The position numbers were made by a program, and so were the translations under genes. From contig NZ_CP069535.1 in NCBI RefSeq assembly GCF_016889805.1, forward strand, positions 3,162,001-3,226,000: DNA of 64,000 nt, in the 5' to 3' direction. The notes under the pieces are model-generated. The model searched no databases. It saw only the letters and a list, made by a program, of their open reading frames with translations, and had not been told where the DNA came from. Below, one piece after another: positions 13,318-61,839 of this stretch. This stretch comes from Rhodanobacter sp. FDAARGOS 1247 (GTDB lineage Bacteria; Pseudomonadota; Gammaproteobacteria; Xanthomonadales; Rhodanobacteraceae). The first letter of the stretch is position 1. Each line of letters opens with the position of its first letter.

Positions 13318-13390
13318 GTAGGGCGGGCACTGCCCGCCGGCTTTTCGACATTGCCGCCGCGTCAACGGCGGCGGGCAGTGCCCGCCCTAC
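13318..13390. repeat. Long inverted repeat between metX and metB
   Basis: Arms 13318-13338 and 13370-13390 are exact 21-bp reverse complements (GTAGGGCGGGCACTGCCCGCC), and the centre adds a GCCGCCG/CGGCGGC stem. The downstream arm contains the metX stop codon (13387-13389), so the element was either inserted there or supplies the gene end. In an operon mRNA it would form a strong hairpin between metX and metB that could protect or pause the message. Confidence 0.7.
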
Positions 13391-14427
13391 AGGGTCAGGG
13401 CTTCGCGCAGCAGGGGGGCGAGTTGTTCGGGTTCTTTCAGGAAGGCGTCGTGGCCGTACGGCGACTCGACCACTTCCAGCGTGGCCGGCCCGCGCAGGCG
13501 ACGCTGCAGTTCGCACAGGTCGGCCAGCGGCACCAGCCGGTCCGACGGGAAGCCGATCAGCGTGGTCGGCGTGGGCACCTGCTCGGGCGCCACGTCGTGC
13601 AGGTCGATCGACTCGGACAGGGCGAGGAAACGATCGGCGTCGAAGCGCTCCACGAAGCGGCGGCCCTGGTGTTCCAGGTAGTCCTCGACCGGGAAGTGGA
13701 AGCGATCGTCGCGGAATGCCGGGGCGCCGGCAAATCGGCGGCCGAACTCGGCGCTGCCGCGGTAGGTGGTGATCGCCAGCTGCCGCGACAGCGCCAGCGC
13801 CTCATCGACGTGGCCGCTGGCCTGGCCCAGCCGCACGATGCCGCGCTGCACGCTGCGCTGGGCGGTGCTGAGCGGATGGGCGCGATGGGCGCCGGCCAGC
13901 AGCACCAGCCGTTCCAGCTGGCGCGGATGGCGGGCGGCGAAAGCCAGCCCCACCATCGCGCCATACGACGAGCCGACGAAGGCGTGCACCTGGGTCAGGC
14001 CCAGCTCGCGCAGCAGCGCGGCCAGCGCGTCGGCCTGGTCTTCGCTGGAGATGGACGCGGTGCCCAGTTGCGCCGGGGTCAGCCAGTCGATCGCCAACAC
14101 CCGGCAGCGGGTCAGGTCGATCGCCGCACCGTCGCCGACCAGCTCCTGCCACCAGCCCGGGGCCGCCGCACCGGCCGGGGCGCTGACGTCGCGATCGGCC
14201 GAGATGCCGCCCTGCACGATCACCGTGGGCGCGCCTGCCGCGCCGTGCCATGCATAGCTCACCTCGACCGCGCGCGCGCCGGCGCCGTACTTCGGGCTGA
14301 GCTGCAGCCGGCGCGTGCCGCGCTGGGCGGTGAGGCGGGCGCGCGGCTCGATGGAAGACGGGGACGCGCTGTCGGCGGCGCCGCTACAGCGCGTCTCGAT
14401 ACAGCGGGCTTCGGGCAGGAAGGTCAT
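13387..14427 (-). CDS. metX: Homoserine O-acyltransferase, MetX family
   Basis: 346-residue alpha/beta hydrolase-fold enzyme that acylates homoserine, the first committed step to methionine. The nucleophile elbow is FVGSSYGAMVG, with acid and base regions IGFPSDRLVPL and SPYGHDAFLKE. In Xanthomonadales, MetX-type enzymes are reported to use succinyl-CoA rather than acetyl-CoA; the donor cannot be decided here. GGAGAG (14434-14439) lies 6 bp before the chosen ATG (14425-14427); upstream in-frame ATGs lie within the leader RNA. First gene of metX-metB-hom, under a SAM-I riboswitch and tandem met boxes. Confidence 0.92.
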   Translation of the reverse strand: MTFLPEARCIETRCSGAADSASPSSIEPRARLTAQRGTRRLQLSPKYGAGARAVEVSYAWHGAAGAPTVIVQGGISADRDVSAPAGAAAPGWWQELVGDGAAIDLTRCRVLAIDWLTPAQLGTASISSEDQADALAALLRELGLTQVHAFVGSSYGAMVGLAFAARHPRQLERLVLLAGAHRAHPLSTAQRSVQRGIVRLGQASGHVDEALALSRQLAITTYRGSAEFGRRFAGAPAFRDDRFHFPVEDYLEHQGRRFVERFDADRFLALSESIDLHDVAPEQVPTPTTLIGFPSDRLVPLADLCELQRRLRGPATLEVVESPYGHDAFLKEPEQLAPLLREALTL

Positions 14428-14433
14428 CTCGCG

Positions 14434-14470
14434 CTCTCCGGTCGACATCGCCCTGCGAGCTACCGGAAAG
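14434..14470 (-). promoter_or_regulatory. Putative Shine-Dalgarno-sequestering helix of metX
   Basis: On the minus strand, CTTTCCGG (14463-14470) can pair over all 8 positions, with one G-U, with CCGGAGAG (14434-14441), which holds the metX ribosome-binding site. This would close the site between the riboswitch aptamer and the ATG, suggesting translational control. Inference from complementarity only. Confidence 0.45.
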
Positions 14471-14516
14471 GTCGTCATCCATGGCACGACGGCAGCACGC
14501 CGCGAACCGGATCACG

Positions 14517-14628
14517 CCCATCTACCGGTGGATGCCGAAGCATCCCCGCAGGAGTTGGCACCGTGGCGGAAACGTTCCGCAGGTTGCCCCGGCTTCAAAG
14601 GGCCTGTCCCTCAGCCGGTCTCGATGAG
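14517..14628 (-). promoter_or_regulatory. SAM-I (S-box) riboswitch aptamer
   Basis: Minus-strand leader with the family's core: CTCATC for P1, then ACCGGCTGAGGGACAGGCCC, TTTGAAGCCGGGGCAACC, GGTGCCAACTCCTGC, a GGATGCTTCGGCATCC hairpin, and GATGGG closing P1 (14517-14522 with 14623-14628). These are the conserved S-adenosylmethionine-binding blocks of Rfam SAM-I. It precedes metX by about 90 nt. SAM binding should lower metX-metB-hom expression. No U-tract terminator follows, so control is probably at translation. Confidence 0.9.
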
Positions 14629-14636
14629 TGAGGCGG

Positions 14637-14665
14637 ATCTTGAGGCCTTGCCAATCAACTGTCAA
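14637..14665 (-). promoter_or_regulatory. Sigma-70 promoter of metX-metB-hom
   Basis: Minus-strand TTGACA (14660-14665), a 17-bp spacer, then CAAGAT (14637-14642). Initiation would fall at about 14630, right at the first base of the SAM-I aptamer. A perfect -35 with ideal spacing and a fitting start point. Confidence 0.75.
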
Positions 14666-14666
14666 T

Positions 14667-14690
14667 AGACGTCTAAACATCTAGACGTAT
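14667..14690. promoter_or_regulatory. Three tandem met boxes (MetJ operator)
   Basis: Abutting 8-bp units AGACGTCT (14667-14674), AAACATCT (14675-14682) and AGACGTAT (14683-14690). The first is the exact MetJ consensus; the others match 6 and 7 of 8. MetJ dimers bind such contiguous 8-bp arrays cooperatively. The array ends one base before the -35 hexamer of the metX promoter. A MetJ-domain protein is encoded at 60556-61107. Confidence 0.8.
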
Positions 14691-57014: not shown

Positions 57015-57602
57015 TCAGCTGAAGGAAACCTTCGGCACGTCGCGCACGGCGGGGTTCTCGATCTTCAACGATTCGGCGGCGGCGAAACCGAAACTGTTGG
57101 CCACGAACGAGGCAGGAAACACTTCGCGCTTGTTGTTGTAGGTCAGCACGGAATCGTTGTACGCCTGCCGCGCGAAGGCCACCCGGTTCTCGGTCGAGGT
57201 GAGCTCTTCGGACAGCTGCATCATGGTCTGGTTCGCCTTCAGGTCGGGATAGGCCTCCTGCAGCGCGAACAAATGACCCAAAGTCTGTGTCAAAGCATTT
57301 TCAGTGCTGGCCAGCTGCTGCATCGCAGCCGCGTCACCCGGCTTGGCCTTGGCGCCGGCCAGCCCGTTCACCGCCGCGTTGCGCGCCTGCACCACGGCCT
57401 CGAGGGTACCCCGCTCGTGGGCGAGGTAACCCTTGGCCGTCTCGACCAGGTTCGGTATCAGGTCATGTCGGCGCGTCAGTTGCACGTCAATCTGCGCGAA
57501 CGCGTTCTTGTAGCCGTTGCGCGAAGTCACCAGTCCGTTGTAGATCGCCACGAAGTACAAGACAATCAGAACGACGACAATCAGAACAATGATCAGACCC
57601 AT
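57015..57602 (-). CDS. lemA: LemA family protein
   Basis: 195 residues with one N-terminal membrane helix (GLIIVLIVVVLIVLYFVAIY) and the LemA helical bundle: NGYKNAFAQIDVQLTRRHDL, IPNLVETAKGYLAHERGTLE, NRVAFARQAYNDSVLTYNN. The C-terminus faces the periplasm in this family. Function unclear; commonly adjacent to M48 proteases, as here. ATG at 57600-57602; eleven upstream codons are also open. Divergent from the serine hydrolase. Confidence 0.93.
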   Translation of the reverse strand: MGLIIVLIVVVLIVLYFVAIYNGLVTSRNGYKNAFAQIDVQLTRRHDLIPNLVETAKGYLAHERGTLEAVVQARNAAVNGLAGAKAKPGDAAAMQQLASTENALTQTLGHLFALQEAYPDLKANQTMMQLSEELTSTENRVAFARQAYNDSVLTYNNKREVFPASFVANSFGFAAAESLKIENPAVRDVPKVSFS

Positions 57603-57657
57603 CGACAAATTCCTCACCCTGAGGCGCATCCCCACGCCGGAACCAGATCAGAATACC

Positions 57658-58974
57658 ATGCAGTTTCACAAGCTCTTCCTGCTGGTCGCAGGCGCTCTCG
57701 GGCTGGCCTGTGCGCCGCTTTGCGCGAAGGCAGCGCCCTCTTCCGCCACACCGGCGCCAGCGCCCACCAGCGTGGGCCAGACGCCACAGAAGTTGCCGGC
57801 GGCACGCGTCAAGCAGACCCTTGCGGACTACCAGCGCTGGCTCAATCGCGTCGCGCAGCGCGATGCAGTAGCCGGACTCGCCACCGCGGTGGTGATCGAC
57901 GGCAAGGTGGCCTACGAGGGCACGATCGGCTACACCGATGCCACCACGAAGGACCCGATCACGCCGCAGACCGTGTTCCGCCTGGCATCGCTGTCCAAGG
58001 CCTTCGCCACCGCGATGACCGGCCTGCTGGTCGACGACGGCAAGCTCGGCTGGGACACGAAACTGCTCGACGTGCTGCCGTACTTCAAGCTGAAGGACAT
58101 GCAGGCTGCCGCACGGGCCACCGTCGGCGACATCCTGGGGCAGCGGCTGGGGCTGCCGCGAAACACCTACGACAACATGCTCGAAGGCGACACGTCCTAC
58201 GAGGAACTGGTGCGCAAGCTGGACGAGGTCGACATGGTCTGCGGCGTCGGTCAGTGCTACGGCTACCAGAACGTCGCCTTCAGCATGATCGGCGACGTGG
58301 TGCTCGCGCGCACCGGCGACTTCTTCTATCACCAGGTCGACAAGCGCATCTTCTATCCGCTGGGCATGACCACCGCGAGCTATGGGCGCGCCGCCCTGGA
58401 ATCCAGCAAGAGCTGGGCGCGCCCGCATCGTGGCAGCAGCCGTGGCTGGATTCCGTTCGATCCGAACGAGACCTACTACCGCGTGGCACCCGCCGCCGGC
58501 GTCAACGCCAGCATCCGCGACATGGAGAAATGGCTGATCGCGCAGATGGGCGGACGCCAGGACGTGTTGCCGACCTCGCTGCTCGACGTGCTGCATGCTC
58601 CGGGCGTATCCACACCCAGCGAACTGCACGCCACGCCCTGGCGTCGCGCCCGGCTCACCGATGCCCACTACGCGCTGGGCTGGCGCGTGTACGAATACGG
58701 CGGTGAAACCCTGATCTATCACGCCGGCGCCGTAGCCGGTTACCGCACCATGATCGGTTTCTTCCCGAAGTACCGTGCCGGCGTGGTCACCTTGTGGAAC
58801 TCCACCGGCCCCACGCCCAGCGGACTGATGCCGATGGTGCTGGACGGCCTGCTCGGCCTGCCGCACGTCGACTGGGCCGAAATCGAAGGGCCGGCCAAGG
58901 CCGCCGCGCCGACCAGGGCCAGGAAACCGAAGCACAAGCCACGCGCGCGCCATCGGCCGGCACGCAAGCACTGA
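57658..58974 (+). CDS. Beta-lactamase class C-like serine hydrolase
   Basis: 438 residues, signal peptide (LFLLVAGALGLACAPLCAKA), mature domain of the class C/esterase family. Catalytic motifs: LASLSKAFATAM (SxxK), CYGYQNVAFSM (YxN), LIYHAGAVAGYRT (H-A-G in place of KTG). The HAG form points to an esterase or D-amino peptidase rather than a true cephalosporinase. The C-terminus has a Lys/Arg-rich tail. ATG 57658. Located in the periplasm or anchored. Divergent from lemA. Confidence 0.88.
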   Translation: MQFHKLFLLVAGALGLACAPLCAKAAPSSATPAPAPTSVGQTPQKLPAARVKQTLADYQRWLNRVAQRDAVAGLATAVVIDGKVAYEGTIGYTDATTKDPITPQTVFRLASLSKAFATAMTGLLVDDGKLGWDTKLLDVLPYFKLKDMQAAARATVGDILGQRLGLPRNTYDNMLEGDTSYEELVRKLDEVDMVCGVGQCYGYQNVAFSMIGDVVLARTGDFFYHQVDKRIFYPLGMTTASYGRAALESSKSWARPHRGSSRGWIPFDPNETYYRVAPAAGVNASIRDMEKWLIAQMGGRQDVLPTSLLDVLHAPGVSTPSELHATPWRRARLTDAHYALGWRVYEYGGETLIYHAGAVAGYRTMIGFFPKYRAGVVTLWNSTGPTPSGLMPMVLDGLLGLPHVDWAEIEGPAKAAAPTRARKPKHKPRARHRPARKH

Positions 58975-60555: not shown

Positions 60556-61107
60556 TTACTTCTTCGCTTTGGCTTTGGCGGTCTTGGTGGCCTTCACCAC
60601 CTTGGCCGGTGCAGCTTTCTTGGCGGCAGCCTTCTTCGGCGCAGCCTTCTTCGCAACCTTCTTCACGGCAGCTTTCTTGGCAGCAGCCGGCTTCTTGGCA
60701 GCAGCCTTCTTGGCGGCCGGCTTCTTGGCGGCAACCTTCTTGGCTGCCGGCTTCTTCGCTACCGGCTTCTTGGCGGCAGCCTTCTTGGCGGCAACCTTCT
60801 TCACGGCGGGCTTCTTGGCGGCGGCCTTCTTGGCGGCCGGTTTCTTTGCAGCGGGTTTCTTGGCAGTGGCCATGGTTCGTCTCAGCTCCTCATCAGTTGG
60901 CAGTGGTTGCCCAGTAAAAGCGTGCAGGAACGCTTCGACCAACACGTCACTGTTGGTAGCGTGCCGAAGATTGTTCACTTGACGATGCGTGCGCAAATCA
61001 GAAAGCCGCCGCAATACATGCAGCGGAATCGAGACAGTGATCTTGCGTACTGCATTCGCCTTTTCACCGTGTTCGACGTACGGCTTGATGAATTTGGTTG
61101 TTGCCAT
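60556..61107 (-). CDS. metJ: MetJ-type methionine repressor fused to a histone H1-like Lys/Ala tail
   Basis: 183 residues. Residues 1-77 are a MetJ ribbon-helix-helix domain: [15 protein letters not shown], the DNA-contacting strand [12 protein letters not shown] (21-32), [12 protein letters not shown] (42-53) and [13 protein letters not shown] (58-70, the SAM-binding region). E. coli MetJ goes on with an acidic C-terminal helix; here it is replaced from residue 79 by ~105 residues made only of Ala, Lys, Pro, Val and Thr (KKPAAKK-type repeats), like histone H1, AlgP or Hc2. The ATG (61105-61107) has GGGGA about 11 bp upstream. A SAM-dependent repressor with chromatin-like binding is expected. 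Likely targets: met boxes at 14667-14690. Confidence 0.9.
60559..60873 (-). repeat. Lys/Ala-coding tandem repeat in the chimera tail
   Basis: Irregular 12-15-bp units, on the plus strand of the form TTCTTGGCGGCAGCC or TTCTTGGCGGCCGGC, encode KKPAAKK/KKAAAKK blocks. The unit length varies in steps of three, so slippage would lengthen or shorten the tail without frameshift. Variation between strains is likely. Confidence 0.7.
60871..60891 (-). promoter_or_regulatory. Possible internal ribosome site for a free H1-like protein
   Basis: Inside the chimera, GAGGAG (coding E-E) lies 12 bp before ATG 60871-60873 (M79), and the tail begins [11 protein letters not shown], just like free-standing bacterial H1-like proteins. 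Internal initiation could give a separate 105-residue tail protein. Spacing is longer than ideal. Confidence 0.35.
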
Positions 61108-61135: not shown

Positions 61136-61164
61136 AAGCTATCCCTGAAGATTTCTGGTGTCAA
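61136..61164 (-). promoter_or_regulatory. Promoter of the MetJ chimera
   Basis: TTGACA (minus strand, 61159-61164), 17-bp spacer, then TAGCTT (61136-61141). Perfect -35 and spacing, weak -10. The start would lie near 61129, giving a leader of about 22 nt. Confidence 0.6.
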
Positions 61165-61186
61165 TTGATTTCAATCATGAAATCAA
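61165..61186. promoter_or_regulatory. Palindrome abutting the chimera promoter
   Basis: TTGATTTCA (61165-61173) and TGAAATCAA (61178-61186), perfect 9-bp arms with a 4-bp centre, directly upstream of the -35. A candidate operator for an unknown dimeric regulator. It does not resemble a met box. Confidence 0.5.
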
Positions 61187-61839
61187 CCCGCCCGACCGAC
61201 CGCGATCCGCCCGGAACCACCACGCGACGCGGCCTGCGGGGTTTGCATGCATCTTTCAATTGGACGTCCATACTTCCAAACGGATTTTGGTCAGAATTTG
61301 ACCAACACCTTGAAAGCCTTGTCCTGCAAGGCTTTCGCCATGCGCGATGAAAAAATGTCGAAAATCTGTCGCGCGAGAGTGCGTGTCTGGCGCGGGGCCA
61401 AACGGCCACCACAACACCGTCGCCGGCAGATGAACGGGACGCGACTGAAATCATTTTTCCGACCAGCCGAAAGATGGCCCCGATCCCGGGCCGGGCAGGT
61501 CCGGAACGCGTCGTCGACCGGATGAGGCGTCCCGACTTCTCCAGGAAGGACGACGTGCGAGCACGCGCTCGCGGACCGATCGATCGTCGCCGCGCTCCGT
61601 CCGAAAACTGCGTGACGGAAAATTGCCGAGGAAGATTGCAGCGAAAAATCCACGCGAACTTGCCGACGATTCACCGCTGATCCTGCGCTGCCGTGCCGGG
61701 AAAATGCGGCGCGATTCGCCTTGCGAAAAGAGCGCTCCGACGCAGCACGGCTAACCATCCCGAGCAGGCAAACCGCTATCGCAAAAACGGCGCCGGCCGC
61801 AAAAGCGGCCGGCGGAACATCACTCGACGAGCGAAAGAC
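61187..61839. other. 650-bp gap, no gene recognised
   Basis: Open frames on both strands are short, rich in Arg/Ser and unlike any family. A single palindromic GGACGTCC (61262-61269) resembles one met box, but its neighbouring 8-mers match poorly. GC is lower than in genes around it in places (61240-61330). It may hold a small RNA or a decayed gene; nothing can be named. Confidence 0.4.

Follow-up and report, generated by a model that had tools for sequence, protein, structure and literature searches.

The genome of Rhodanobacter sp. FDAARGOS 1247 harbours a gene that joins, in a single reading frame, the Met repressor MetJ to a polycation resembling histone H1 and AlgP. On balance, sequence comparison favours the reading that this is a variant of the Met repressor shared by the whole family Rhodanobacteraceae, and that its gene most likely makes two proteins. 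The gene lies on the minus strand of the window, which here means the whole 64-kb stretch of DNA analysed, and is organised as follows:

60556..61107, minus strand: metJ-tail fusion gene, 183 amino acids plus stop, one open frame recognised with two profile libraries.
60874..61107, minus strand: residues 1-78, the ribbon-helix-helix MetJ domain, which lacks the C-terminal portion present in E. coli (PF01340, NF003622, 1cma).
60559..60873, minus strand: histone-H1-like tail, residues 79-183 (105 amino acids, charge +41), also the entire predicted second product (composition, profile searches).

The frame opens with the ATG at 61107, its stop ends at 60556, and its 183 codons contain no internal stop (60556-61107). 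Pfam's MetJ family PF01340 covers residues 5-87 with 119 bits, where the cut-off is 25, and the NCBIfam MetJ equivalog NF003622 covers residues 4-88 with 124.4 bits, where it is 110, which places the protein in both families. Among the solved structures found, the sequence matches were exclusively Met repressors, the best at 3e-30. The earlier note, which named no strand, had assigned residues 1-77 to MetJ, and the two profile libraries bear this out for residues 1-78. No second MetJ gene was found in the 3.92-Mb source genome, and the closest named metJ loci belong to Rhodanobacter; over the 80-residue query, two are 100% identical. An AlphaFold model of the fusion, made from 32 alignment rows, reached a mean pLDDT of 50.8 and is too poor to support anything.

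The tail consists of 43 Ala, 41 Lys, 9 Pro, 8 Val, 3 Thr and 1 Met, that is 41% alanine and 39% lysine, and the Ala/Lys/Pro extension of about 105 residues that had been noted from residue 79 onwards is confirmed as residues 79-183. The net charge of the MetJ domain is +4 versus +41 for the tail. Against the HC2 profile PF07382 the tail scored 36.5 and 37.8 with hmmscan, where the curated cut-off is 40, and 54.9, above that cut-off, in a six-frame search of the genome in which the translation was read through the stop. Scores against two NCBIfam H1-like models were under their cut-offs. The tail opens with a methionine, residue 79, and a ribosome-binding-like site lies ahead of it. At the end of the tail (60556-60610, minus strand) a protein motif of 12 letters appears, by eye, to be kept in many genera while the remainder drifts. 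The source genome also possesses two further H1-like proteins (G000:C1:2522880-2523689 and 3438608-3439390) and a TopA-like protein that likewise ends Lys-rich. On the plus strand at 57589-58974 there is a beta-lactamase-fold serine-hydrolase-like protein, under the curated cut-offs, with a basic tail TRARKPKHKPRARHRPARKH at its end.

A MetJ domain was present in 193 of the 197 genomes of the family, the four others being assemblies of 83-93% completeness. The Lys-rich tail follows at an identical junction in all 26 genera, each read from at least one member, with 41 to 183 residues and a charge of +18 to +75 in the genus representatives; one fusion protein (L082) has 387 amino acids. A protein search gave 1140 matches, and PF01340 was found in 120/120 among the matches listed, most of which also carry PF07382. 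Two metJ matches were observed in Dyella jiangningensis SBZ 3-12 (CP007444.1; L221 and L226), a duplicate gene or an assembly overlap. That two genes were fused by an error of assembly or sequencing is hardly credible: a join was rejected because the same junction occurs in the representatives of 26 genera, and it is identical in 80/80 named loci too. Nothing in favour of such an artefact was found, and no slippery heptamer for programmed frameshifting was seen by eye.

Across the order, MetJ was counted in 72 of 250 genomes, 52 of them of Rhodanobacter's family and 20 of three others (f9, 13 genomes; f12, 6; f8, 1). Thirteen f9 genes and one f12 gene (L107) possess neither a Lys-rich tail nor an E. 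coli-type C-terminus, and the six other sister-family genes (f12, f8) were assessed from open-frame length alone. In a different order MetJ was detected in 162/197 genomes, and four genes of that order end as E. coli MetJ does. Frames longer than 150 amino acids among the matches listed for it are those of G852, G797, G816, G873, G781 and G896, of which G852 alone was read and has no tail. When the class was sampled evenly, no more than 5/369 genomes had MetJ, two from Rhodanobacter's family and three with open frames of 112-118 amino acids. Among the genes read, the tail was found solely in Rhodanobacter's family.

A C-terminal helix is a feature of E. coli MetJ. It is absent from the metJ-tail protein, where the tail stands in its place. 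By sequence, MetJ proteins that have lost the E. coli-type C-terminus are more widespread than those with the tail. A one-step exchange of one for the other is improbable, since sister-family MetJ of the same order lack both, and the picture of a replacement needs revising accordingly. For the same reason, the E. coli-type C-terminus is not treated here as a requirement for MetJ.

Residues 37-43 of MetJ read DERTRRQ in most genera and DLRTHRQ in Rhodanobacter, and are changed in several others. This segment belongs to helix A, which we take to lie near the SAM site. The response to SAM is therefore unsure, and the SAM pocket of Rhodanobacter MetJ is possibly altered.

Met boxes and related features were located at metX and upstream of metJ:

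14667..14690, no strand assigned: three met boxes in tandem ahead of metX (two overlapping 16-mers, 0.12 expected from shuffles).
14515..14630, minus strand: SAM-I riboswitch separating the met boxes from metX (RF00162, 78.8 bits, gathering score 44.4).
13387..14487, minus strand: metX, first gene of a putative metX-metB-hom run, start codon uncertain (NF006449, 369.6 bits, cut-off 296).
61262..61277, minus strand: GGAAGTATGGACGTCC, a degenerate tandem met box with five mismatches that precedes metJ by 155-170 nt.
61136..61164, minus strand: promoter-like TTGACA-N17-TAGCTT of metJ, identified by eye; both hexamers occur in all 15 upstream regions compared.

The met-box consensus used in the scans is general knowledge. 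The source genome contains 27 met-box pairs with up to three mismatches versus 6 for a reversed-pattern control, and 59 genomes of the family together contain 223 versus 33 with up to two mismatches; in 8 of the 59, pairs were no more frequent than in the control. Within the metX-metB-hom run, metX and metB exceed their curated cut-offs and hom stays under its own. Riboswitch and three met boxes together give the metX leader (14515-14690) SAM-linked controls of both RNA and protein type. Nineteen loci with boxes in relatives were inspected by eye, of which 11 have a metX-like neighbour, one a metB-like neighbour, and seven were unassigned. The best pair of the genome, with one mismatch (L048, G000:C1:3045535-3045558), lies by eye upstream of a TonB-dependent-receptor-like gene, a possible target in methionine or cobalamin uptake.

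Upstream of metJ, a pair with up to five mismatches was present in 23/26 genera, always at -165 to -183, and in 4.6% of block shuffles. These boxes suggest autoregulation. The consensus promoter scan reported nothing at the TTGACA-N17-TAGCTT site. Adjoining that site, at 61165-61186 (minus strand), there is a palindrome TTGATTTCA-N4-TGAAATCAA, also seen in L002 and L004, where it is one base longer, and absent from 12 other loci examined. The table of Leyn 2014 (PMC4239095) gives no MetJ for its four Xanthomonadales genomes, which raised the idea of a repurposed MetJ without a regulon; this was rejected because met boxes are present. In the part of PMC12146267 drawn on here, a data set for strain R12, which we take to be a Rhodanobacter, has MetJ up while four methionine enzymes are down. 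The operators of a MetJ regulon, at metX and at metJ itself, are evident in the sequence. At sequence level, the proposal is supported that an H1-like polycation continues, in the same frame, a sequence-specific MetJ domain whose operators are retained.

At the junction of the two parts the following features were found:

60868..60921, minus strand: silent-site-conserved block GCTTTTACTGGGCAACCACTGCCAACTGATGAGGAGCTGAGACGAACCATGGCC (codon conservation over 26 genera, tightest up to GAGGAG and looser in the last 12 nt).
60886..60891, minus strand: Shine-Dalgarno (SD)-like GAGGAG, 12 nt before an internal ATG (100/101 loci; anti-SD duplex -8.6 kcal/mol).
60871..60873, minus strand: internal in-frame ATG (Met79), putative second start (ATG in 99/101 loci).

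Over the 26 genera, the junction codons are GCT (23), TTT (24), ACT (26), GGG (25), CAA (25), CCA (23 of 24 Pro), CTG (23) and CCA (25), followed by ACT (21), GAT (19), GAG (25), GAG (26), CTG (20), AGA (23 of 23 Arg), CGA (18), one variable codon and the ATG. The variable codon, +9, changes freely, and silent sites in the remaining MetJ domain vary far more than those of the junction. Excess codon identity is 0.42 at the 15 junction codons (-6 to +8) versus 0.11 at 60 others, and the rank-test p of 2e-6 for codon identity is descriptive only, because the sequences are related. At fourfold sites, with genus g21 excluded, the commonest third base has a share of 0.96 at six junction sites versus 0.59 at 14 others. 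Ten of the 16 codons preceding the internal ATG are rare in the source genome; in a count over eight of the window's genes, AGA accounts for 1 of the 187 codons for Arg, ACT for 5 of 135 for Thr, CCA for 8 of 136 for Pro and CAA for 7 of 106 for Gln. The 73 nt of DNA at 60858-60930 were matched in 58/59 genomes and 25/26 genera, once per genome save for one fragmented assembly with two matches. In the tail-less f9 genes (n=13), several codons are used at every junction position.

The two loci without the internal ATG are L074 of genus g21, which has GTG, and one ended by the contig end. The spacing between GAGGAG and ATG is 12 nt in 93/99 loci and 9 nt in six; the usual optimum is 5-9 nt, so that 12 nt is longer. 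Both GAGGAG and ATG were present in all 80 named loci, a set that overlaps in genomes with the 101 loci. Methionine is otherwise found at 4 of 2471 tail residues. In 23/26 genera the RNA around the internal ATG opens more easily than at 12/12 sampled positions of the same gene; a few of these background positions are as open in g32 and g36, and all are in g21. Anti-SD pairing at the internal site lies between -8.1 and -8.6 kcal/mol in 25/26 genera, in eight of which 4-8% of 48 background positions pair equally well, while pairing at metJ's own start is weaker (mean -5.1 kcal/mol). Genus g21, with GTG for ATG, has no GAGGAG, closed RNA and ordinary codons; its silent conservation is gone, and its tail has the lowest share of Lys+Arg, 0.30.

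GAGGAG or CCA alone is no sign of a start, since the tail-less L107 has both and GAG GAG encodes Glu-Glu. Taken together, the conserved codons, GAGGAG, the ATG, the open RNA, the loss in g21 and the variation in f9 make an internal start the best explanation. Ribosomes most likely start at codon 79 as well, which would give a free, 105-residue H1-like protein whose sequence begins MATAKK. Tails made from internal in-frame starts have a precedent in the rpn genes, as described in the portion of PMC10327210 drawn on here. The earlier note assumed a single product; comparative evidence at the junction points to a start that would additionally yield the tail alone.

The same block could be read as a translational pause, the fusion being the sole product and the rare codons giving the MetJ domain time to fold ahead of the emerging polycation. 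The ten rare codons do lie at the domain boundary, and two of the looser positions sometimes change to other rare codons (Leu to CTA, CTT or TTA in 6/26, Arg +8 to AGA in two). A pause requires rarity, however, and not identity, and equally rare synonyms are absent outside g21 at the tightest positions, Thr -4 (ACT 26/26), Gly -3 (GGG 25), Pro +1 (CCA 25) and Arg +7 (AGA in 23/23 Arg). As a pause also accounts for neither the retained ATG nor the low structure, we regard this explanation as doubtful. We consider a different role at the nucleic-acid level unlikely for the block, be it as a target of a small RNA or RsmA/CsrA, a hairpin or an internal promoter, with the ATG incidental. Conservation does begin about 30 nt upstream of GAGGAG (60892-60921, minus strand), beyond the need of a ribosome site, and RNAalifold gives a small hairpin, GGCA-ACCAC-UGCC. 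This hairpin is weak, however, and broken in 3/26 genera without changes on both sides, and as a conserved RNA structure it was rejected. No Rfam family reached its gathering score at the junction; the sole overlap, Hammerhead_II (E 2.7, 16.4 bits versus 37), lies in its upstream part over codons that vary, and a riboswitch or ribozyme was rejected. The consensus scan found no promoter in the block, and the in-frame ATG persists where the linker length is altered, as in L104 (genus g29), whose linker is one codon shorter.

Two further alternatives concern the tail itself, and not all of the alternatives weighed here are incompatible with the favoured reading. It might be a tolerated low-complexity extension of an ordinary MetJ, given that its length and repeats drift over the range noted above and that TopA and the H1-like proteins of the source genome have basic tails too. 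Against this, the tail is kept in 26/26 genus representatives with its charge conserved while the sequence drifts, and on a protein that binds DNA, a free tail with a charge of +41 is presumably not neutral; a passive tail is thus improbable. We hold it very improbable that the tail, in the manner of AlgP, tethers the protein to polyphosphate or senses it, moving MetJ off its operators in starvation rather than clamping DNA. In the section of PMC9239181 relied on here, AlgP losing its KPAA-bearing C-terminus disturbs the spacing of polyphosphate granules. The present data, though, contain no link of the metJ-tail gene to polyphosphate, and such tails bind DNA too.

On the favoured reading, a family-wide repressor with an internal start, the full frame would give the MetJ-tail protein and the ATG at codon 79 the tail alone. 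A MetJ dimer would carry two tails (+82 in total) to the met boxes, where they might clamp adjoining DNA non-specifically, with longer residence time and more cooperativity, and repression would perhaps depend less on SAM. A chromatin-like action of the tail is plausible by analogy. The free tail might coat DNA generally, competing with the fusion or assisting it. According to the part of PMC1282579 used here, the corepressor SAM influences MetJ mainly by way of its positively charged sulphur. The charge of +41 per chain might override or retune this electrostatic response. If the boxes upstream of metJ do mean autoregulation, both products would follow SAM status. We put forward only tentatively the wider proposal that one frame supplies, across the family, a SAM-gated H1-tailed repressor and a free nucleoid protein whose ratio, set at the internal ribosome site, would couple SAM to DNA compaction, both local and global.

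A natural MetJ with a charge of +41 on every chain lends itself to asking how electrostatics determine specificity and the response to ligand. If the internal start is true, one gene serves both a regulator and a nucleoid protein, and the silent-site signature could serve to find further cases. Many of the named matches listed are called plain MetJ, and automatic naming can thus hide a changed protein.

The literature searched, with most subscription journals outside it, did not turn up a MetJ with an H1-like tail or a separate tail product; each component is already known, and the combination of MetJ, tail and putative internal start appears to be new. The earlier note knew of no characterised protein of this build, yet regulators that end H1-like have a precedent in AlgP, and in the related tail of PhaF. 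Similar to the metJ-tail protein, Pseudomonas AlgP (AlgR3) has a structured N-terminal part and a disordered tail of K/P/A repeats that varies in length. AlgP and PhaF carry H1-like KPAA tails without a MetJ domain, and to our knowledge neither is a SAM-dependent operator-specific repressor. In the passages of PMC9239181 considered here, AlgP is a regulator with an H1-like C-terminus and PhaF has a related tail in Pseudomonas, binding to DNA holds for KPAA peptides and for a portion of AlgP's tail, and the K/P/A tail of AlgP organises granules. The rpn genes-within-genes (RpnL/RpnS) also obtain a C-terminal tail from an internal in-frame start; in the part of PMC10327210 used, they form a toxin-antitoxin pair and their start is proven, whereas that of metJ is predicted.

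The bacterial H1-like proteins HC2 (PF07382) and the Burkholderia type (NF038053) are alike in composition to the tail, which differs in being encoded inside metJ and in scoring mostly below their cut-offs. The MATAKK-type N-terminus of the putative free product presumably resembles those of bacterial H1-like proteins. The sister-family MetJ of f12 and f9 share the lack of an E. coli-type C-terminus and, unlike that of Rhodanobacter, have no Lys-rich tail. E. coli MetJ (PF01340, NF003622; PDB 1cma, 1mj2) shares the domain above the cut-offs and the tandem boxes at metX and metJ; it has its own C-terminus, whereas Rhodanobacter MetJ carries the +41 tail instead, together with a probable internal start.
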